Below, in pieces: positions 3,103 through 16,081 of a stretch of 64,000 bases of DNA; the stretch's first letter is position 1, and the number at the start of each line of letters is the position of its first letter. The DNA is from Daphnia pulex (lineage: Eukaryota > Arthropoda > Branchiopoda > Diplostraca > Daphniidae). The notes beneath the pieces were generated by a model, which was not told the origin of the DNA, did no database searches, and worked only from the letters and a program-made list of their open reading frames with translations. The stretch covers positions 496,001 through 560,000 of the forward strand of contig NC_060019.1 of the NCBI RefSeq assembly GCF_021134715.1, given 5' to 3'. Both the position numbers and the translations under genes were made by a program.

Positions 3103-4062
3103 TCAAGACTTGTCGTTTTTCATCTCGAGCTGCTGATGATGTTGAAGAAGTTGAAAAACGTCTGACGAGGAAATTCGAACTTCGCGGCCGGGTTCCAACA
3201 TTTTTTGGATGAGGTCGCGAACGGATTGCGGCTGAATTTCTGCGTAATTTGGGAAAATGCGTGATTAAAAATTAAAAATTTTGGTTTGTTAGAGACAATG
3301 GGACTTACTGTCTAGATGAACGGGATTATTTGAAAGTATATTAGCGGATGCTAGAACTCTTGAACCGAAAATATGTTGACCATTCAAAAGGTAGTAGCCG
3401 AAGACTAAGCCTTGAGAAAATACGTCGCTCTTGACTCATGTTCCTCTTTGATGTGCTGCTGTTTCATCTTTTCCATTTTCTTCTTCTTCTTGAATTTTGA
3501 TTAATACTATTTCAGGGGCATACCAATAATATCGGTGCCTCTGTTTGATCCACTGATTGAGTGACTTCCTCTTCTGTTGACCCGTTTGCTCAACCCGAAA
3601 TCGGCCCATTTCATCAATACTTTTTGAGTTAGTGGATCAACCCAAATGAGCACGTTTTGAGGTTTGATATCCCGATGGATTAGTTTCTTTTGGTGGATGT
3701 ACTCGAGTCCTCCGGCCAATTGATGAAGGACTCTAATTGCCGGTGGCATTGCTGGGCCAATGGTATTTTTTCGGGTCCTCATCTTTCAGGAATATATTGT
3801 CCAGTGAAGCGTTGCACAATTCGAGATAAAAATATCTAAAATAAGAAAATAGTCGTTAAAAGATTATTTTGTTTTATTTTTGACGACATTAGTCTTTTTT
3901 TTTCTACTTGTATACTGAATCACTTTTAACGTCAAACAACTTGACGACATTGGGATGGTCAAGTCTCTCCAATACCTTCTCGTCCATTGTCAATGTCAGT
4001 TAATTTGATTCGCTTGACAGCCACTGGAATCCCGCGCCAAGCGTCGTTTTCGTCAACCCCAT
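3103..4062 (-). pseudogene. Decayed IRE1-like kinase domain (copy D)
   Basis: Reading leftward from about 4062, the three-exon kinase plan of this array is recognisable but broken. Exon 1 keeps RGIPVAVKRI but changes frame before EKVLERLDHPNVVKLFDV. Exon 2 keeps LIHRDIKPQNVLIWVD and KWADFGLSKRVN, but has a frameshift before GPAMPP, another in the GTD-WYAPE segment, and an in-frame TGA just before KSDVF. The last exon (3103 to about 3232) is open, contains RDLIQKMLEPGREVRISSSDV, and ends in TGA. The catalytic HRD and DFG triplets survive, so this copy resembles a second domain of the double genes. Only one domain is present. With at least three frameshifts and a stop it is a pseudogene. Confidence 0.8.
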
Positions 4063-4467
4063 CTGCCTGTGAGAAATCATTTGGTTTTTCCTAACAGGGC
4101 GCTCATGATGATAATGATCATATGGAAATATTTGTTTGGCTTTCCTAATTGAGTTTCTCTTTCTCGTATCATTGACAATGATCGGTTGATGACCGCGCAA
4201 TTAACGACTCAACGTCTCATCCTTTTGAGTTGAATTGTTATTCGATATTTTTTATTTACGTCTTTTGATCCGTAGATTCCCTCATGTTACGAGATAGCGA
4301 GCGCATGTGCCCCCGACATCGCAAGCATTTAAAAAAAATAATAATAATGAAAATGAAATTTGCTGTTTGCTGCTTATTCGCACCGTTAGCTGTTTATTCT
4401 CATCTGGCTGTAATTGATGATAATAGATGAAACATTTTTAAAAATCTTGGAATTCATGTTGGGCAAA
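4063..4467. other. Spacer between pseudogene D and gene C
   Basis: AT-rich spacer. No kinase motif for a missing first domain of copy D is recognisable here. Confidence 0.4.
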
Positions 4468-5565
4468 TTAAACGTAGTCGAATTCAATGTGTCTTAGTTC
4501 TTTTGTGACATCCGATGAAGAAATTCTTTCCTTTGGGTCGGGATGGATCATTTTCTTAATCAGTTCGCGAGCGCTTTGCCATTCTATTTCTGTAAAAATA
4601 TTTAAATGTGCGATTAAGAAAGTAACATGATTACATTCTGATAAAGGGAAAACCTCAAATTTTAAAATAAATAATTAAAAGCGATATTTCTGCTATATGT
4701 AGCGACTTACTGTCTAGGTTGACCGGTTTGTCTCTGTATATGTTTGACTCAGGAAGTCCCCCAAAGAGATGACGTCCTTTTAAAAGATAATAGCCAAAGA
4801 CGAGCCCTTCGTTGAAGACGTCGCTTTTAATGGTTCCTCTTTGTTTCGCTTCAGAAAGACTAGTCTCTTCGTCGTTCAGTATTTTCAATATTTCCGGTGC
4901 GAACCATCCTTCTGCCCCTCTAACTTTACTCACTGTGTAGGTTTCACTTTTAACTATTTGCTTGCTAAACCCGAAATCGGCCCATTTCAACAAAACTTGT
5001 TTGATGTTTTCCGGATTCACCCAAATGAGGATGTTTTTGGGAGTAATATCCCGATGGATTACTTTCTTTTCGTGAATGTATTCTAATCCAGTAGCTAACT
5101 GAAGAAGAACGTCTTTTTGCGAGGGCATTGGTCCTCGATATTTCTTGGCAGATTCATCAGTTAAAAATAATTTGTCCAGGGAAGCAGCGCACAATTCGAT
5201 GGCGTAATATCTAAATATAGCCATTGAGAAAATTTAATTCATTTATATAAATTAAATGTTTACCTATTCTTCGAGTCGCTTTCCGCGTGGAAAAGTTTGA
5301 CGACATTCGGATGATTGAGCATTTGCAACGCTTCTTCCTCTCGTTGATTACTTTTAACTTTCGATAAAGGAATTTGTTTGACAGCCACTTGATTGTTATT
5401 CCACTCGCCTTGGAAAACTTCGCCATAACCTCCACTTCCCAAAATCTTGTTGAAATCAACTTTGATTTGTTTCAAACTTGGGGTATTGTTATCTTTTGAA
5501 TTGACCAATGGGTATTGCCTGCCCTTCGCCTTAAGTTGATTATTTTCAATTAATTTGGAATAATT
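4468..5565 (-). CDS. Gene C, intact second kinase domain
   Basis: Exons 5565-5264, 5210-4711 and 4589-4468 are fully open and encode one IRE1-like kinase domain of about 307 residues. Exon 1 begins after a CTAAG acceptor and has no ATG before the glycine loop. Its frame joins in phase 0 to the end of the preceding domain (donor GTATAAC at 5614, intron 49 bp). In order the domain shows the glycine loop GSGGYGEV, VAVK lysine, EEEALQML helix, HRDITPKN, ADFG, GWFAPE, KSDVFNEGLVFGYYLL and the C-terminal RELIKKMIHPDPKER helix. The HRD+2 lysine of Ser/Thr kinases is Thr here. If the LTR insertion upstream abolishes the full transcript, this half could only be expressed from an internal promoter, for which nothing is seen. 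Confidence 0.65.
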
Positions 5566-6367
5566 CTTAGATTAAAAAATTAAATTTGTCATGACACTTC
5601 CGCATTAGTTATACCATGATTTGTATGAGCTGTTGGACGACATCTGATGAACTAATTCGATTCATTGGGTTCGTTGTCAACATTTTTTCGATAAGTTCGC
5701 GTAAATCATCCTCCTCAATTCCTATTGACGTTTAAAATTGTTTTGAATTCGTGAATGAGGTCATTGTGTCAAAGAACTCGACTTACTTAATAGATTAACG
5801 GGGTTATTCTCAATGATATTTGTCTCAATCTGCATTCGGGAGCCAAAGAGATGAAAACCTTCCAACAGGAAATATCCGAAGACGAGCCCTTCCGCAAAAA
5901 CATCCGATTTGACTGTCCCTCTTTGTTGGGTTTCTGATCTACTGACCTCTTCCACTTCAAGTAATTTCAATATTTCCGGAGCGAACCAATGCAATGTTCC
6001 TTTGATTCCACTCATGGAACAAGTTCCCCTTTCGTTGACTTGTTTGCTTAATCCAAATCCAGACCATTTCATTAAAACTTGGTCAGTTTGTAATTGATTC
6101 ACCCAGATGAGGATGTTATGGGGTTTAATATTTCGATGGATAATTTTCTTTTGGTGAATGTACTCGAGTCCAATGGCCAATTGATGAATAACTTCAATCT
6201 CCGTTGGCATTGGGCCACGATATTTTTGCGGGTCGTCATCTTTCAAAAATAATCGATCGAGTGAGGCTTGGCATAATTCGAGAACGTAAAACCTGGAACG
6301 GAAGAATTCAAGGATTGCGCAATCATTTTACAACCATAGTTCTTATTTTATTAAACCGTTATACTTG

Positions 6368-6372
6368 GAATG
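6368..6372. repeat. Target site duplication, left copy
   Basis: GAATG immediately precedes the left LTR and is repeated exactly after the right LTR at 7841-7845. This is the 5-bp duplication expected for a copia-type integration. Confidence 0.9.
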
Positions 6373-6614
6373 TGTTGTTTTTTAACCTTCTCTACTTCTG
6401 AGAATGTTTTCTTTCAATGTTGCTTCAACGTATTGTGTGATACGTATGTCAACGTTTGTTCTCCCCCCCTTTTCTTGAGTCGAGACTAGTGTCGTCTTGC
6501 TTGCTACTCACTCACTCTCTTTTGTCTCAACAAAGAATGCAGTTCATTCTTTCTTAGCACCAAAGTGTTTCAACTAAACTAAGAGGTATTGCACCATAGT
6601 TTCTAATCTCAACA
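6373..6614 (+). repeat. Left LTR
   Basis: 242 bp, TGTTG...CAACA, followed directly by the primer binding site. No difference from the right LTR was seen. Confidence 0.92.
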
Positions 6615-6630
6615 GGTTATGGGCCCAGAG
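6615..6630 (+). other. Primer binding site (initiator Met tRNA type)
   Basis: GGTTATGGGCCCAGAG begins at the first base after the left LTR and matches the internal tRNA-iMet fragment used as primer by copia-type elements. Confidence 0.8.
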
Positions 6631-7137
6631 ATTGACGTTTATTTACCACTGTCGTATTTATAATCTGTACAAGTTCCCAAATTGAACGGAATACTCAATG
6701 ACACCATTGAATGCCCAAGTTGGACGGAATACTCAATGCACCATTGAATGCCCAGTACAAATTCTGGATGACAACAAATGCCCCTACATTAATGTCGAGG
6801 GAAGATCAACAGAAGAAGCAATCATTCTTGCCTGGCATGATCTAGATTTTAAAAGCCCAAGATTTTATTTTCAGTACTACTGAAACGAGTTGCCTAATCA
6901 ATCTAGAATCTCTGTTAAAGTCATTCACTTCTAAAATAAAACAATTTTCTTCTATCTCAAAAAGGAGTTCGAAACACCCTTTTGGATTGTACATCCTCTT
7001 TTATTATGTGGACACTTTTAACTCAACAATATGAGCAGAGCGCATCAGAAAAACAAACATGTTTTAATTGATCGCTTTCTTCCGCTACGAGTACGAAGCA
7101 GGAAATGATAATGGCGCATGTTTCAAAAAACAGAAAG

Positions 7138-7530
7138 CTTAGTTCATCAATTGCGTGATATGGGTACAATGCTTGACGATGATCAACTAATCACACAAGT
7201 TCTTATGACTCTCCCCGTGTAATACGCAAGTTTTCGAGAGGCCTGGGCACTTTTACAATCTACTGAACAAACAAGAAAGAAAAATGATAGCCAAAATTTT
7301 ACGTTTAAGAGTAGGCCTAATCAGGACGTGAAATGGCTCTGTTTATTGCAGCACAAACGTCGACGTCCTCACAACTCACATTCGCAAGACTTAGCCTATG
7401 TTCTTTCTGTGGTTTAAATAATCATGTTTTTGCCAATTGTCACGAGCGTAAACGCGAACAAGGTGAATCTCACGAATCTCAGCATGTAACAAACGCAAAC
7501 CAAGTTCAAAAACCAAGAAATCTAAAGTAA
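7138..7530 (+). pseudogene. Broken copia-type gag remnant with CCHC knuckle
   Basis: The first part reads LVHQLRDMGTMLDDDQ, then VLMTLPV, a TAA stop at 7220-7222, and FREAWALLQSTEQ, the usual end of a copia Gag core (LPxxYxxFxxAW). After a frame change, CSFCGLNNHVFANC gives a CX2CX4HX4C zinc knuckle followed by a basic tail. The stop and frame change show that it does not encode a working Gag. No pol sequence follows. Confidence 0.75.
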
Positions 7531-7598
7531 AAATTGGATTTAGTCTAAATCAAACATTAAATTATCGTTTCTCACGCTCCGTTCAGTTTAAGGGGTTG

Positions 7599-7840
7599 TG
7601 TTGTTTTTTAACCTTCTCTACTTCTGAGAATGTTTTCTTTCAATGTTGCTTCAACGTATTGTGTGATACGTATGTCAACGTTTGTTCTCCCCCCCTTTTC
7701 TTGAGTCGAGACTAGTGTCGTCTTGCTTGCTACTCACTCACTCTCTTTTGTCTCAACAAAGAATGCAGTTCATTCTTTCTTAGCACCAAAGTGTTTCAAC
7801 TAAACTAAGAGGTATTGCACCATAGTTTCTAATCTCAACA
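7599..7840 (+). repeat. Right LTR
   Basis: 242 bp, with no difference seen from the left LTR. Preceded by the purine tract AAGGGG near 7591 and followed by GAATG at 7841-7845. Confidence 0.92.
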
Positions 7841-7845
7841 GAATG
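7841..7845. repeat. Target site duplication, right copy
   Basis: GAATG, identical to 6368-6372. Removing the element and this copy restores the frame of kinase gene C exon 1. Confidence 0.9.
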
Positions 7846-8067
7846 TTCATCGCTGTCTATGTGAAATAGTTTGGCGACATTAAGGTGATTGCTGAGTTTC
7901 AGCAAAGTTGATTCTTCCTGTCGGGCTTCCCGTTCCTTTTTTGAATTGTTAGGGACTCGTTTGACGGCCACTGGAATCCCACGCCATTGCCCTTCAAATA
8001 CGGTGCCATATGCTCCTTTCCCCAACAACTTGCTACGGTCTAACGTCCATGTGGATTTTCCAAACAT

Positions 8068-9762
8068 GTTGAGGGATTTCGCTGAATTGTATCTCCTGGT
8101 TGTAGGAAAATTCACTTGATCTTGAGGGTGGATGTTAACGGTCAACGGGATAATCTTCTATACTTCTCTAATAGAAAAACAGTAAAGTTATATAGTAATA
8201 ATCTCCTAAAACCTTTTTAAAAAATCGGCACTGACTTGGTGTTTCTCTGATGGACGCAAGAAATTCCTTTAATTGTAAAGAAAAGGAAATTACTCGGGAA
8301 TTTGAATCACGTAGATGCGGTGTACGATGCGAAGAACAAAACGTTTATCCTCAAGGAATGGAACACACAAACTGCGTTTGTATGCACGATCGATGCTGAC
8401 GTGGCTCTGCCGCTCTGCCCTTAGGGTAGAGACTGAAGGTCGGTTTACTCGTTTCCCTGACGCTTTATTAGATGCGTGTCCATCACGTGCTCCGTCTGGT
8501 AGCTCGCCAGCTGTTGCCTTTTAAGGAATATGTCAAGACCCTATACTAAAACGGCAAACGATAAATGACCGTCACAGAAATGTCTTTTTTCTGTACAACT
8601 ACCAATGCAGATATAGGGGAAAGAAAATAAGGAAGATAAGGTCTCCTAATTTTCAGAATGAAACAAATTTACCATTTCAATAACATCTGCTTGAAAGCGA
8701 CTATCCTTTGCCCTTTGCATAGTTTATTGAGTTTATCTGCAGTTTTGCAATAATAAGAAACTAAATGCTATGTTCGTTCGGAAACTCTTTTTATGGAATC
8801 CAACTGATGAAAATCATTTACAAACAGATATAAAATATCAATAATAACAATATAAAAAATAACGTGTCATTAACAAAAAAAAAAGGCAACCATTTACCTA
8901 AGGTAAAGAAAACTTAAAATAGATTTTTCGACTGCTGTTTTGTATGGACCGCCCTTATTATGTGCCATGTTTTTGTGTCAGGTTGCCAGTTTAGTTCGTC
9001 TTGCGTAAAAATTGGTAGAACTTGTTCTATTTTCTCAATTTTTTTAAATAGTTATTTCGTTCATATCCTAGAATAAAGTTTTAACAGACTCAATAAGAGA
9101 ATTCTCGTCAAAAAAACAAAGAAAAAACAAAACCAAAAAAAAACGATTGAATATTTCATAGATGGCGTTGATTTCTTGTAAAAACCCTTCTTGGCGCCAA
9201 TCTCAAATCGAATATAAAAAATGTAGTAAGTAGTAAAATATAGAGACAGCTTCACCGTTCCCACGAACAATAGTTTTGCTTTTAGTTTAACTATTATCGT
9301 GTATTTATTGTCTTTGTGGAAAAGACAATTCCGATGTTTTAATTATTTTGATTTTGAAATAACGTAAACAATTGATTACTTTTCAAAATTAAAGAATTTA
9401 TTGCGCTGATTTAAAGACTCAATTAATACAAATAATCAAGTAAACTCGAACAACACAACAATTTAAATATTTATTATGTTGATAGAAAACTCAGTTGAGT
9501 TTTGACAATACTTTTTGAGTGTTTGTTGACATTTTGTGATGTCGCTCACGTTTTTCGCGGTTTTTCGTATCTGGTCTCTTGCACTGCACCGTGGTCTCCT
9601 TATGAAGACTTGTAAGTTAAAACCTTAAAAAATCTTCCCTCCTTGTGTTTTTTCTTGATGAAATTGCTAGGTCTCGTCAGTTAAGTGTAATTCACACCAT
9701 TTCGAGATAATTCGAAATTATGTGTTATTAATTTTGTATTGATTTTTGTCTTAAACAAAAAA
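8068..9762. other. Intergenic, upstream of gene C
   Basis: Mostly AT-rich. A 47-codon open stretch at about 8284-8424 (+), reading HVDAVYDAKNKTFILKEWNT, ends in TAG. It looks protein-like but has no partner exons and was not identified; it may be a transposon or gene fragment. Any gene C promoter should lie just right of 8067, but no clear TATA box was recognised. A TAGATGGCG motif occurs at 9159. Confidence 0.4.
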
Positions 9763-10290
9763 GGGCGGAGGTGTCTGTGGCTGCAAAGAGAGTTTCATCA
9801 TCGCCGAACAAGTCAAAACTGGCCGAGCAAGTCACACAGGGCGCGCTGGGCATCAACAACAAACCTGGCCGGTATTTAATACGACGAAAATTTTTTCAAC
9901 TTTAACCAACAAACATTTGATTATCTTTTGATCTTCTGTAGGGAGCTCAGATCAGAACCCTTGGGGAAATGGGTCCTATTGGCGGCCTTCCGGTTCCAGT
10001 TGGTACTTCGGTTCTTTCCTGTCTCGCGGAAGCGAAAGGAAATCAAGGAGATCGAGGCAACACCAATTCACTTAAGGTAGGACTCAGCAGCCTTTTCTCT
10101 TGTTTTATTAGTAGCTGCTCAATTTGTGCAAAAACTTCACTCTATGGAAATTAGGGGGGGGGGAGGGCGTTGAAGATGAAAGTGTTCATTTTATCTGTTT
10201 GTTGTCTTTTTGTTTGTCACCAAGATTCAACATTTTTTTTAGGTGACTCAATTTCACCGTCGATTTTCTCAGTTTTTGGGTTGGCAATTT
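9763..10290 (+). pseudogene. Decayed partial copy of the collagen-like gene
   Basis: Sequence from 9763 repeats exon 2 of the collagen-like gene (GGGVCGCKES, IIAEQVK, LAEQV), but with a small insertion, altered frame and loss of the Gly-X-Y triplets. From about 9942, GAGCTCAG, the GEMGP stretch, PVGTSVLS and KGNQGDRGN repeat fragments of exon 3, with most triplets deleted. Similarity continues past the exons to about 10290. The copy cannot encode a collagen helix. It lies to the left of kinase gene B just as the parent collagen lies to the left of kinase copy D, which suggests the two were duplicated together. Confidence 0.8.
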
Positions 10291-10936
10291 TTTAAGTAGG
10301 CGCTGTTGGGCGAATCACCTTTCATTTCAAGGAGGCTACAGCAAACTATATGAATGTGTATTAATTTGGCAGGTAGTATTCTCTGTGCTTGTTGTTTCCA
10401 CGCATTTTATACATTTAAAGACGGATTTTCCCCGGTTGTGGTTAAGGAGTTTCCAAACTGGGCTGGGCGCTTCTTGCACTAGGTCACGCTTCTGTTCATC
10501 GGGTATAGTCGGGTATAGTTGAGGTTATCGTAGGTTTCGTGGCGCTGAATGGTGTTGTACTTCTGAGTAGGCCTATCATCCGACATCTGTTTATATATAG
10601 TAAAGCAAGGAGGTAAAGCATAAGATGTTGGTTTTACCTTACTTGGAAAACGTCAAGCTTCCTTTCTTTTGTAGTTAATGTAACTCGTCGATCTGATTAA
10701 TTTTTCTGCGTTTTGTTGCATTCGACATTTGCTCACAGTCAGATGAAGTATGTCTACGTTGAACTTCCTATGATAGTAAAAGAAAATGTAAAAATTTTTG
10801 GTGGAGTTCGAGTTTTGTTTGTAAAGAAAAAGACGGCGAAATGTGTAAATGCTATTTCTTGTACGTGGCGGTGTACACAGGGTGGACAACTGCAGTGCAC
10901 ATATAGATGTAACTATTGATGTAAATGTAATTTAAC
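10291..10936. other. Spacer left of gene B
   Basis: No coding sequence recognised. It contains the short direct repeat GGGTATAGTC/GGGTATAGTT near 10500. Confidence 0.4.
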
Positions 10937-13349
10937 CTACAGGATGAAGTAAGGCTTAGTCAATTTTACTTTTATCTTTCGGAGTTCTTCAGCGACATCC
11001 AATGCAGATATTCGTTTATCGATGTTGGGCTCCAACATTCTCAGGATTAATGTGCGTGCGTATTCTGGCTTAACGCCTGTATATTACAGAACGTAATTAC
11101 TGTTTTTTACGTATGTACAGAGTATAAATAAGTATTTTACTTTCTAGATTGACAGGGTTATTGTCAATTATGTTGTTTCTGACGAAGGAAGATGTTCCAA
11201 ACAGGTGGCGACCACCTAACAAATAATACCCAAAGACGAGACCTTCTGTAAAGATATCGCTCTTGGTCGTTCCTTTTTGAAGATTTTTTCCATCTTTTCC
11301 GCTTATTTCTAATTCTTCTATTTTCTTCAATGTTTCTGGGGCATACCAATTTTCTGTTCCTCTGTTTGCACTTACGGAATGCCACCCATTTTTGTCGACT
11401 GCTTTACTGTATCCAAAATCTGCCCATTTCATCAAGACTTCTTTGGTTTCTGGATTCACCCATATGAGCACGTTTTCAGGTTTAATGTCCCGATGGATTC
11501 GATTCAATTCATGAATGTGCGCTAATCCCTCTGACAATTGAAGAAGAACATCTATGTCTGTGGGCATTGGTCCAAGATATTTTTTGGGGTTACTCTTTTT
11601 CAGAAATAATTTGTCTAATGATGATTGGCAAAGTTCCAGTGCGTAGTACCTGAATATTGCGGAATATTGAACAGTTTAAAAATTAAATTGTGCGCGTAGT
11701 CACCTCCAGTGAAAAATTTACCTAAACTGATCGTCGTTCTCAACATGTAACAATTTGATGACGTTAGGATGCTCAAACGTTTTCAAAGCTGCTTCTTCTT
11801 GATCATTGCTTGCGGTTTTAAACAGGTCAATTCGTTTAACAGCCACCTGAATTCTCTTCCACTCACCTTTAAAAACTGTGCCATAACCTCCGTATCCTAA
11901 CACTTCGTTAACGTAAACTTTTATCTTTTTTATCTTCTTTAAACTGGGGTTGGTATCCACTGCAGGCAAATCGACTTGTTTCTTCTTTAACTGAAAATTT
12001 CGGAATTTTCAGTTGTTGTCTCTCTAGAAATGTTGGGAAATCAGTTTACCTTGATTTTTTCGAGTTGTTCTGCGACAAGAGATGAAGTGATTCGATCCTC
12101 TGGTTTCCTAGTCAACATTTTCAGAATTAAGGGTCCAAGTGTCTCATATTTGGAGAGAATTTCTATAAAAATGTATTTAAATTTTTACTAGGATGGGCTA
12201 AAAGTCAGTGATTAATGTTTAAGGAGATGTGAATTACTTTTCAAATTGACTGGCTTATCTTCAAGTATGTTCTTTTGAATCTCATAACGGGAGCCGTAAG
12301 GATGGAAACCATCTAAAAGGTAGTAGCCGAAGATGAGTCCCTCAGCAAAGACGTCGCTCTGCATGGTTTCTTTTTTACGTGCTCCAACGTCTTCTTGACT
12401 TTCCTCCTCTTTTTCCATTATTTCCAATACTTCCGGCGCAAACCATCCCCATGTTCTCTTAACTTCTGCAGTCATTGTGTAAGATCCTCTTTCATTTGAT
12501 GCTTTGCTCAGTCCAAAATCTGTCCATTTCAACAAGATTTTTTTCCCACTTGGATCCACCCAGATGAGGACATTTTGTGGCTTGAGATTTCGATGGATTA
12601 GTCCCACTTTGTGAATATATACGAGTCCAGTAGCCAACTGATAAAGAACGTCTTCTGCAGGGGGCATTGGGCCTCTATGTTTTCTGGGGTTCTTGTCTTT
12701 CAAGAATAATTGGTCCAACGACGCTGTGCACAGTTCAAGGCAGTAATATCTAGAAAATCATAAATATTTTTAAGAAAGGATTGACACTGACTGGTTGAAT
12801 TAAGAACACAATAACATTTACAAAATAACAATAACACAATAATATTTCCTGACTCGTTCAGAGTACAGCCTTTTTGAGCGTTTTACGTATTACGTGTACG
12901 CTTTTTCGGTTTAAGCAACCGCAACTCTATCTGTTGTGAAGAAACGGTTGCAATAAACCAAGACGATACGCAAAACGCTCCAGAAAACTGAAAGGCTGAA
13001 GCCTTGGCTGAAGTCTGCACGGCCAGAGAAGAGAGAAAGGATAGTTGAAGGGTGGATTAGACGAAAGCGAACGTTACAGTGCTTAAATAAGTGAAATTTT
13101 TATGTTCTATTACTTATTTACTTGTCAGTTTTTAGTTTGAGTACCTGAAGCTATTGTCACTCTCGGCGTGAAAAAATTTGACAACGTTGTCATGAAGAAG
13201 TTTTCGCCAGTCTCTTCCTTTTGTTCTTTGTAATTGATTTTAGTCAATTCAGTTCGCTTAATTGCCACCGGCGTCCCATGCCAGACACCTTTATAAACGA
13301 TACAGTTTTCTCCCTCACCTAAAGGCTGGTCTAAGGAAAATTCCACCAT
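10937..13349 (-). CDS. Gene B: double IRE1-like kinase, frameshift in domain 1
   Basis: Six exons run leftward: 13349-13145, 12749-12238, 12162-12050, 11990-11722, 11649-11141 and 11076-10937. Domain 1 starts at a true ATG and has LGEGENCIV, VAIKRT, HRNLKPQN (Asp lost), TDFGLSK, GWFAPE, and QSDVFAEGLIFGY. Exon 1 is 205 nt where 206 is needed. The frame changes between KEQKEE and LLHDNVVKFFHAESD, which looks like a one-base deletion. Domain 2 (LGYGGYGTV, VAVKRI, HRDIKPEN, ADFGYSK, ENWYAPE, KSDIFTEGLVFGY, MLEPNIDKRISALDV) keeps every key residue. It is joined by a 59-bp phase-0 intron (GTAAAC...TTTTCAG) to domain 1 and has no ATG of its own. The kinase fold is closest to IRE1; RNase, luminal and membrane regions are absent. 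The deletion would truncate the protein unless it is a sequence error or polymorphism. Confidence 0.72.
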
Positions 13350-13386
13350 AGTGCTCTGATTGAAAAAAATGTATTTTCTTTAAAGA

Positions 13387-13428
13387 AAATTTGCTTATAA
13401 ACAGCAATTGCTGTTTTTAAGCAAATTT
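13387..13428. repeat. 42-bp near-perfect palindrome before gene B
   Basis: Arms beginning AAATTTGCTTA and ending TAAGCAAATTT flank the centre CAGCAATTGCTG. About 20 of 21 pairs match. It lies some 38 bp upstream of the gene B start codon, in the probable 5' UTR or core promoter. It could form a hairpin in RNA or be a dimeric protein site. Confidence 0.75.
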
Positions 13429-13928
13429 GTTCTATTGCTATTGCTCTTCACAAGTTTAATGGGTGTGGCCGTAGTGTGCCAAGTTTGTCACTTCACTCTT
13501 ATTTTCTCTGTTCTCATATCATCGTCAAAGGTATGACGAAAGCATCTAAATTTCAATGCTGCGTTATCATGCCATTATCGTTCTCGTTATCATCTGTGTA
13601 AAGTGTTTTTGACATTTTATCACAGGCATGACGCAGTTTGAAATTTCTGAAAAATTATTTTCTGTAAAAGATTCAACTTGCAACCGTCTTCGTTTTCAAT
13701 CCCTATTTCATTTAAGGAACTCGTGTTTTCGTTAGGCTACTTATATGTGCGTACACATTATACATATACCAACAAAAAATTCCATTTCCGCTTTAACCAT
13801 TTCTTCACCGTTTAATAAATGACAATAAGTCTTTGATCCTCGTAACTTTCAGCGATAGTATTGAACGAATTAAAAATAATTGTTTTAATTTAGATTTATA
13901 CATTTTGCTGGATGTGAAAGAAGGTGAA
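13429..13928. other. Spacer between genes A and B
   Basis: AT-rich DNA between the gene B palindrome and the gene A stop codon; no gene recognised. Gene B's promoter should lie here. Confidence 0.4.
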
Positions 13929-16081
13929 TTAAACCTTTTTTAATTTTTTTTTTATCGCTCTAAGTTGTTCAGCAACACCCAACGATGAAATTCTATGGCC
14001 GGGAAGGGGCTCCAGCATTTTCACTATAAGTTTCTGAGCGTAATCCGGTGTAACTTCTGAAAAAATATACATACATATGCTAAATAATAATATATCTTGA
14101 TTTAAAAAAAAAAAAAGGGGGGGGCTTACGTTGAAGATTAACCGGTCTATTGTAAAATATATTTGACTCAGTATGTAAACGAGAACCATACAGATGTTGA
14201 CCATTCAACAGAAAGTATCCGAAGACGAGTCCTTCCGCGAAGACGTCACTTTTGACTGTTCCACTTTGCCGTACATCACTTTTAGACTTGATTACCTCAT
14301 CATCTCCATCATCTAGTAATCTTAATATTTCTGGCGCTAGCCAATCGAATGTTCCTCTAACTTCGGTCATGGAAAAAGTCCCTCTTCTGTTGACTGGTTT
14401 ACTCAACCCAAAATCCGTCCATTTCATCAAAACTTGGTCAGTTTGTGAATTCAACCAAATAAGGACGTTTTGGGGTTTGAGATCACGATGGATTAATTTC
14501 TCCGAGTGAATGTACTCAAGTCCTTCGGCTAACTGACAGAGAACGTCTTCTGTGGGGGGCACTGGGCCACGGTATTTTTGCGGGTCCCTATCTTTCAGGA
14601 ATATTTTATCTAAAGATGCTTGGCAACACTCGAGGGCAAAATATCTATAAACATTAAAAAAAAAGTGCATTTTGTTTCTATAGAAACTTTTCAAATTTTA
14701 TTTACTTGAATAGATCGTCGCTTTCTGTGTGGAAAAGTTTGATAACATTCGGGTGATTGAGCATTTGCAACGCTTCTTCCTCTCGTTGATTACTTTCGAT
14801 TTTAGATAAAGGAATTCGTTTGACAGCCACCGGCGTGTTATTCCAAATGCCATGAAAAACTTTGCCGTATCCTCCCACTCCTAAAATCTTGTCAACGTCA
14901 ACTTTGATTTCCTTTAAATTTGGGTTAATATCCACCGCAGGCAAGGCGACAAGCTGGGCTTGTTTGTTCTTTCTCTAAAGAAATAATTTTCAGTTGTTGT
15001 CTTTTTAGAAATGTTGCTGGGATATCAGTTTACCTTGACTTGTTCGAGTTGTTGGGCGACATCAGATGAAGTGATTCGATCCTCTGGTTTCTTAATCAAC
15101 ATTTTCTGGATTAGACCTCGCAATTTATCATACATTGGAGGAATTTCTATGAAAATGTATTGAAATTTTTACTAGGATGGGCTAAAAGTCAGAGATTAAT
15201 GTTTAAGGAGATGTGAATTACTTTTCAAATTGACTGGCTTATCTTCAAGTATGTTCTTTTGAATCTCATAACGGGAGCCGTAAGGATGGAAACCATCTAA
15301 AAGGTAGTAGCCGAAAATGAGGCCTTCTGTAAAGACGTCGCTTTTGACGGTTCCTCTTTGACGTGTTATTTCCTCTTCTCCATTTTCTTCTTCTTCGATT
15401 TGTATGATCATTATTTCAGGGGCATACCAATTATCACTGCCCCTTGATCCACTGATGGAGTGAGTTCCTCTTTCGTTGATTAGTTTACTAATTCCGAAAT
15501 CAGCCCATTTCATCAAGACTTCTTTGGTTGTTGAATCCATCCAAATAAGGACGTTCCTGGGATTTAGATTTCGATGGATTAGTCCCATTTTGTGAATATA
15601 CTCCAGTCCAATAGCCAATTGATAGAGAACGTCTTCTGCGGGGGGCATTGAGCCATGGTATTTTCGCAGGTCCCCACTTTTTAGGAATAATTGGTCCAGT
15701 GAGGCGTTGCACAGTTCGAGAAAGTAATACCTAGATTATCATTTATTTTAGAAGAGTAGAATTTATTTTGTAATTATCAGAATTTATTTTGTAATTATCA
15801 GAATTTATTTTGTAATTATGAGTTATGAACAAGTTATGAACAAATTGACAAAAGCTATGCAATTACCGAAATGCCGCGTCATTCTGTGAATCAAATAGTT
15901 TAACAATATTCGGATGATTTAGTCTCCGCAATACTTCTTCTTCTCTATCATTATTTGATTTGTGAAACAATTCAATTCGCTTGACAGCCACTCGAGTCTC
16001 TCCCCACACCCCTTCAAAGACGACGCTGTGACTTCCTTCCCCTAAAATCTTCATTCTATCGAAATTACTTTCTTTAGACAT
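13929..16081 (-). CDS. Gene A: intact pseudokinase-kinase, IRE1-like
   Basis: Six exons run leftward: 16081-15867, 15730-15222, 15146-15034, 14974-14706, 14644-14130 and 14056-13929. They sum to 583 codons in one frame from ATG to TAA (582 residues). Domain 1 (about 1-279) has LGEGSHSVV and VAVKRI, but HRNLNPRN, so the catalytic Asp is Asn; DFG is kept (ADFGISK). Domain 2 (about 280-582) has LGVGGYGKV, VAVKRI, HRDLKPQN and TDFGLSK and should be active. Both share RGxxxWxAPE, KSDVFxEGLxFGYxLL and a final LIxKML...RISS helix, features of the IRE1 kinase fold. There is no RNase (KEN) domain, signal peptide or membrane span, so a soluble kinase is likely. The domains are joined across a 59-bp phase-0 intron (15033-14975), and no ATG precedes domain 2. 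Phases 2 and 1 inside each domain are the same throughout the array. Substrate unknown. Confidence 0.82.
15759..15821. repeat. Three 21-bp tandem repeats in gene A intron 1
   Basis: GAATTTATTTTGTAATTATCA is repeated three times, the last copy ending ATGA, followed by two copies of GTTATGAACAA. The repeats lie inside the first intron of gene A. Confidence 0.9.

Follow-up and report, generated by a model that had tools for sequence, protein, structure and literature searches.

The window analysed here, a 64,000-nucleotide stretch of the Daphnia pulex genome (positions 496001-560000 of contig NC_060019.1, hereafter C3; genome of 133.2 Mb in 13 contigs), carries three neighbouring genes, A, B and C, all on the minus strand and each laid out as two successive kinase domains (D1, first; D2, second) that resemble the kinase of IRE1 (Table 1). 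Gene A (16081-13929) is the sole intact tandem gene of the three: its six exons, separated by GT-AG introns, form one open frame of 582 amino acids (aa) from an ATG at 16081, with exons 1-3 encoding D1 and exons 4-6 encoding D2; a short linker connects D1 to D2. The product is identical over 582/582 aa to an NCBI protein, P0001, "serine/threonine-protein kinase GE16371-like isoform X2 [Daphnia pulex]"; the two domains thus lie in one reading unit, as the initial annotation of this locus had proposed, and the NCBI gene model matches exactly.

A tandem kinase cluster on contig C3

The catalytic loops read HRN in D1 and HRD in D2 of all three genes, letter for letter as first quoted (Table 1), such that the catalytic Asp is lost from the first domain in A, B and C alike. 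The initial annotation also held that the first domains keep both the β-3 lysine and the glycine loop. The lysine is indeed present in all three (AVKR/AIKR); however, two of these domains lack part of the glycine loop, the third glycine being replaced by Ser in A.D1 and by Cys in B.D1. DFG is found in five of the six domains, with GFG in C.D1, and the catalytic-loop lysine is replaced by Asn in A.D1 and by Thr in C.D2. A.D1 retains the β-3 lysine, the α-C glutamate region and DFG, while A.D2 retains the full catalytic set. By these motifs, all three first domains are predicted to be pseudokinases, that of C on two counts, and A.D2 and B.D2 have the look of active kinases; the status of C.D2 is uncertain, the Thr at its catalytic-loop lysine making it doubtful as a kinase.

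Kinship with IRE1, suggested at the outset for both domains, was borne out for gene A: the 16 best distinct PDB sequences matched by the 582-aa protein are all IRE1, as are the chains in the 48 best Foldseek rows for its AlphaFold2 model (mean predicted local distance difference test score, pLDDT, 84.6; predicted template modelling score, pTM, 0.53), making IRE1 the nearest solved kinase for both domains by sequence and fold. The KEN nuclease domain of IRE1 is missing. Pfam (E <= 0.001) reports kinase models only on P0001, with no KEN, ANK, FERM, SH2, RWD or other domain, and a genome search for KEN (PF06479) gave matches at two places only, on contigs C1 and C4, with none on C3.

That D1 and D2 are instead separate transcription units, fused only in the gene model, we regard as very improbable. 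In its favour, translation running into the unspliced interdomain intron would reach a stop codon within three codons in every one of the three genes, so that an unspliced RNA would yield D1 alone, and the join test applied to the relatives (below) is permissive and without a negative control. However, interdomain (exon 3-exon 4) introns of 59, 59 and 49 nt in A, B and C, respectively, leave little room for a transcript end and a new promoter; no ATG lies upstream of the D2 glycine loop in the stop-to-stop frames of the first D2 exons of the three genes; and the NCBI model comprises the same 582 aa.

Gene B (13349-10937) has the same exon set as gene A, with the frame broken in the α-C region of the first N-lobe exon; this exon gives two matches in two frames, and the model has a length that is not a multiple of three, with stops downstream. 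In gene C (8067-4468, where its stop ends), the first N-lobe exon is interrupted by a long-terminal-repeat (LTR)-type element. The element is young: its direct repeats are identical, with a 5-bp flank duplication, CATTC, assigned by eye (each 245-nt repeat counts one flank copy or part of it). No open reading frame of 90 aa or longer was found between the repeats, and 29 LTR-like matches occur genome-wide, both repeats of the gene C element included. A decayed fourth copy lies beyond gene C. Preservation across three paralogues, as initially claimed, therefore holds for the sequence but not for three working genes, B being frameshifted and C split by an insertion; both are best read as copies in decay within a cluster of birth-and-death type.

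Table 1. Exons and associated features of the tandem kinase cluster, in window positions
Feature	Position	Strand	Content
Gene A exon 1	15867..16081	-	Start codon and D1 N-lobe, GEGSHS loop, VAVK; GT donor, frame
Gene A exon 2	15222..15730	-	D1 C-lobe, HRNLNPRN, DFG
Gene A exon 3	15034..15146	-	D1 end; next intron 59 nt, read-through to stop after V-N
Gene A exon 4	14706..14974	-	Linker and D2 N-lobe; no ATG before glycine loop in stop-to-stop frame
Gene A exon 5	14130..14644	-	D2 C-lobe, HRDLKPQN, DFG
Gene A exon 6	13929..14056	-	D2 end and stop; full model identical to P0001
Gene B exon 1	13145..13349	-	D1 N-lobe, frameshifted in α-C region
Gene B exon 2	12238..12749	-	D1 C-lobe, HRNLKPQN, DFG
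Gene B exon 3	12050..12162	-	
Gene B exon 4	11722..11990	-	Linker and D2 N-lobe
Gene B exon 5	11141..11649	-	D2 C-lobe, HRDIKPEN, DFG
Gene B exon 6 and stop	10937..11076	-	
Gene C exon 1	7841..8067	-	D1 N-lobe, terminates at LTR-type insertion
Gene C exon 2	5787..6292	-	D1 C-lobe, HRNIKPHN, GFG
Gene C exon 3	5615..5721	-	Next intron 49 nt, read-through to stop after V
Gene C exon 4	5264..5565	-	Linker and D2 N-lobe; no ATG in frame before glycine loop
Gene C exon 5	4711..5210	-	D2 C-lobe, HRDITPKN, DFG
Gene C exon 6 and stop	4468..4589	-	
LTR-type element in gene C	6371..7841	.	Identical 245-nt direct repeats 6371-6615 and 7597-7841, 1226 nt apart
Putative conversion tract, A.D1 vs B.D1	15190..15309 (match within 12031-12330)	-	119/120 identical, exon-intron stretch; surroundings ~60-85%
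Decayed fourth copy	~3120..4080	-	One kinase domain with broken frames, HRD and DFG still legible; resembles L042_4; limits by eye

Elsewhere in the window, pieces at 1305-1841 are repeated at 9744-10060 (66 nt at 88% and 77 nt at 81%, ~8.2-8.4 kb apart); by eye, the copy at 1305-1841 lies within Gly-X-Y-like plus-strand sequence that is collagen-gene-like in appearance.

Degenerate domains among Daphnia relatives

The family is large in water fleas. In the D. pulex genome, the C-lobe exon of gene A has at least 153 matches, the strongest mostly on C3 at 0.15-1.6 Mb; a second large cluster of kinase matches, with ~36-53% identity to this exon, lies on contig C11 at ~0.25-2.9 Mb. The D. pulex relatives considered here were drawn from 21 stretches of C3. 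L042 and L043 each carry three kinase domains in a row (L042, HRN/GFG, HRD/GLR and HLD/DFG, the last loop being HLDITPKN; L043, HRD/GLE, HRD/GLR and HRD/DFG), and L046 is an HRN/GFG copy with a broken frame. In four further tandems, L052, L055, L057 and L059, the order is reversed, with HRD/DFG in the first domain and HCD in the second, combined with NFG, NFG, SLG and NFG, respectively. In-frame GT-AG joins were found at 7/8 junctions in each of L042 and L043 and at 5/5 in each reverse-order tandem; the unmatched junction in L042 and L043 is that between the N-lobe and C-lobe of the middle domain, where a GC-AG intron would fit. Three adjacent domains of L049 were likewise linked by this test (7/7), but were not counted as a tandem.

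Among 139 listed proteins, 111 were named as Daphnia and the other 28 were dropped, leaving 65 of 66 single-kinase and 38 of 45 multi-kinase proteins scorable; a domain was taken as failing where the Asp of HRD, the Asp of DFG or the β-3 Lys was lost. At least one failing domain occurs in 32/38 multi-kinase versus 3/65 single-kinase proteins, counts that are inflated by related entries and by several D. magna and D. pulex entries that probably represent alleles, or models, of a single gene taken from different assemblies. The failing domain in the 38 multi-kinase proteins is the first only in 25, the second only in 5 and both in 2, with none failing in 6. The HRD aspartate is absent from just 2 of the 65 single-kinase proteins, which places the HRN of the first domains above chance expectation. 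Counted by domain rows (181 in all), 44/95 tandem versus 4/86 single domains are degenerate. Outside the Daphnia-named set, P0110 (720 aa) carries two kinase matches and KEN, its second loop being HQGIKPQN, and is another tandem on the IRE1 theme.

As a general layout for such genes, HRN in the first domain, which the initial annotation had put forward, does not hold: L043 keeps HRD in D1 and loses DFG instead, the four reverse-order tandems carry their dead domain second, and 6/38 multi-kinase proteins lack a failing domain altogether. What emerges is a setting that seems richer than first claimed, in which kinase pairs with one apparently dead member have appeared in Daphnia repeatedly and in either order.

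Within the HRN group, the codons themselves are informative. All of the first domains of A, B, C, L042 and L046 spell HRN as CAT CGA AAT, whereas CGA is used in 5/34 HRD copies from the same C3 stretches; this common spelling points to common descent or gene conversion, and A, B and C are not independent cases. Two further HRN domains, L039_-_1 and L049_-_2, use the codons CGG AAT and CGC AAC, likely representing separate changes. When the HRD and DFG columns are left out of the domain tree, a single clade unites the last domains of A, B, C, L042 and L043 (support 96/89), so that the tandem is older than these copies; another unites the first domains of C, L042, L043 and L046 (100/99). In the best tree, A.D1 sits next to the HRD single kinase L042_4 (84/89); neither a clade of all six D. 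pulex first domains (p 0.138) nor a grouping of A with B (p 0.339) is rejected. Segment comparison reveals mosaics and conversion, and the near-identical A.D1/B.D1 tract at 15190-15309 reads as a recent gene conversion or unequal exchange. HRN in this group may have had a single origin or may have been spread by conversion.

Beyond D. pulex, the D. magna protein P0011 (571 aa) has HRN/GFH followed by HRD/DFG; a grouping that adds its D1 to those six D. pulex first domains was rejected (approximately unbiased test, p 0.0026). No orthologue of gene A was found among the listed proteins of other species. In a larger tree, built quickly from 194 rows, a 68-row clade holds D. pulex, D. pulicaria and one further row; a second clade, of 114 rows, consists largely of D. 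magna, D. sinensis and D. carinata sequences, accompanied by some rows from D. pulex, D. pulicaria and D. galeata. In this tree a single clade (26 rows, support 99) unites the degenerate D1 of the kinase-ankyrin-kinase proteins, and another (8 rows, support 100) the degenerate D2 of the reverse-order tandems. Losses fall on separate branches for the A/B/C-type D1, the 26-row group, the reverse-order second domains, the middle domains of L042/L043, and P0011, with degeneracy changing at least 9 times in tandem rows and 4 times in single rows. Judging from these trees, tandems with a predicted dead domain, whether first or second, seem to have arisen more than once within Daphnia.

Constraint, possible decay and proposed control

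Degenerate domains are not evolving as free pseudogenes, and this is clearest in the reverse-order group. There, the ratio of nonsynonymous to synonymous substitution rates (dN/dS, by NG86) is 0.17-0.22 for the degenerate second domains versus 0.25-0.35 for the intact first domains, and is lower in 6/6 locus pairs. For C-type first domains the ratio is 0.30-0.51 (6 pairs, among them broken copies), whilst last domains show 0.16-0.45 (10 pairs, with dS >1 in 7) and middle domains 0.53 (one pair); for single kinases, values are 0.17-0.39 (15 pairs, one clade) and 0.21 and 0.30 in two further pairs.

These ratios bear on a simpler account, namely that tandem duplication in a birth-and-death cluster yields fused copies in which the spare domain rots, leaving the HRN domains functionless. 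The frameshift in B, the insertion in C, the decayed fourth copy and the broken frame of L046 all fit such decay, as do the facts that either domain can be hit by losses and that the phylogeny-controlled test described below is not significant. Against it, dN/dS of the degenerate domains lies well below 1, and below that of the intact partner in the reverse-order tandems; A.D1 is open over 280 residues and is predicted, at high local confidence, to adopt a kinase fold; and losses are concentrated on the Asp of HRD/DFG, with K72 and the fold retained. On balance, we hold decay to be unlikely, with perhaps a minor share of the probability.

The explanation that we favour, and to which we would give roughly even odds, is that the gene A family comprises IRE1-like pseudokinase/kinase tandems without KEN, of repeated origin in Daphnia, in which the dead domain would probably control the live one. 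A.D1, despite the replacement of Asp by Asn and of Lys by Asn and the loss of the third loop glycine, may still bind nucleotide, and could thus serve as an allosteric partner controlling D2 within a single chain. As IRE1 kinases act as dimers, with a nucleotide-bound domain that needs no phosphotransfer, linking two IRE1-like domains in one chain could give the molecule a built-in dimer partner. The review PMC3014569 describes the nucleotide-bound kinase domain of IRE1 as working via dimerisation with phosphotransfer not needed, RNase L perhaps likewise, and the JAK pseudokinase as required for both autoinhibition and activation.

Several observations weigh against the favoured explanation. 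B and C are both broken in this assembly, and since no gene A orthologue is listed in other species, D1 of gene A could be drifting; the A.D1-B.D1 dN/dS of 0.35 rests on a dS of 0.82 and includes the conversion tract. The predicted structure, at pTM 0.53, does not fix how the domains face one another and is unusable for interdomain arrangement. L042, with HRN/GFG, GLR and HLDITPKN in its three domains, may hold no fully canonical kinase domain. Lastly, an independent-pairs test of tandem state versus loss, which left out six ambiguous rows (three domains of L049, L046 and two domains of P0010), outgroups and rows lacking motif columns, was not significant (median p 0.625, 13 pairs); shared ancestry accounts for much of the association between tandem state and catalytic loss.

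A different role for the dead domain would be that of immune bait: by analogy with what has been proposed for plant tandem kinase proteins (TKPs), the pseudokinase might mimic a kinase attacked by pathogens, such that interference frees the live kinase. The bare layout, like that of plant TKPs, is compatible with this idea, as is a kinase family that is large, clustered, lineage-specific and gene-converting. Families of this type are typical of host-parasite genes. However, the degenerate domains show no excess of amino-acid change, and bait is, in our estimation, less likely still than decay. Bolder than the pseudokinase/kinase tandem favoured above is the tentative and somewhat doubtful proposal that IRE1-like kinases were repeatedly made into self-contained pseudokinase/kinase switches, an animal counterpart of the plant TKPs with a possible function in defence, which arose within a clustered and rapidly changing family that had lost the IRE1 nuclease.

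Comparison with known systems

Certain Daphnia genes related to the stress sensor IRE1 fuse an off-looking kinase to a live-looking one, a pairing also present in some plant disease-resistance proteins. IRE1 itself (ERN1) shares its type of kinase domain with both domains of gene A, but gene A has no KEN nuclease and has two kinase domains, the first without the catalytic Asp. RNase L offers an IRE1-related pseudokinase, and its ankyrin repeats recur in many Daphnia relatives; gene A, by contrast, lacks both these repeats and KEN, and carries an intact kinase as its second domain. In JAKs, a pseudokinase likewise stands ahead of a kinase in one chain, although gene A is without FERM or SH2 by Pfam and its nearest kinases are IRE1 rather than tyrosine kinases. 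The same order, in a stress-kinase setting, is found in GCN2 (PMC3014569), whereas the 582 aa of gene A contain no RWD or HisRS-like region by Pfam. The Daphnia kinase-ankyrin-kinase-ankyrin proteins (P0003, P0007, P0013 and others) are members of the same kinase family as gene A, and their D1 is often degenerate (HGN/HGD with NFG, NSG or NVG); these differ from gene A in having ankyrin repeats between and after the kinases (Pfam, P0007) and in the separate 26-row clade of their first domains.

That no described family has this architecture, as the initial annotation supposed, stands only in part. No description of the Daphnia tandem family was found in searches of an open-access library, where one hit, PMC3710099, concerns another Daphnia expansion, that of Swt1-type HEPN; the layout, however, is shared with the plant TKPs. 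In PMC6170490 and PMC6997164, TKPs such as WTK1/Yr15, RPG1 and WTK3/Pm24 are described as a kinase joined to a predicted-dead kinase with no further conserved domain, of repeated origin by duplication or fusion and in both orders (RPG1 being classed as pseudokinase-kinase). Gene A is also a tandem of kinase and pseudokinase without other conserved domain. Plant TKPs derive mainly from receptor-like kinases, and several are proven resistance genes; the Daphnia tandems differ in being animal, of IRE1-like origin and known from sequence alone, and are not kin to those of plants. By analogy of layout, plant TKPs are nonetheless their closest analogue.

Ultimately, animal pseudokinase-kinase pairs are known from a few old families, such as JAK and GCN2. 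Pairs that seem to arise repeatedly and in both orders within one genus, beside many single-kinase relatives, would let one ask why fused kinases so often lose one active site, and the Daphnia family would further allow one to ask if a single chain can house a kinase dimer of the IRE1 type. The Daphnia tandems thus provide an animal comparison for the plant TKPs.

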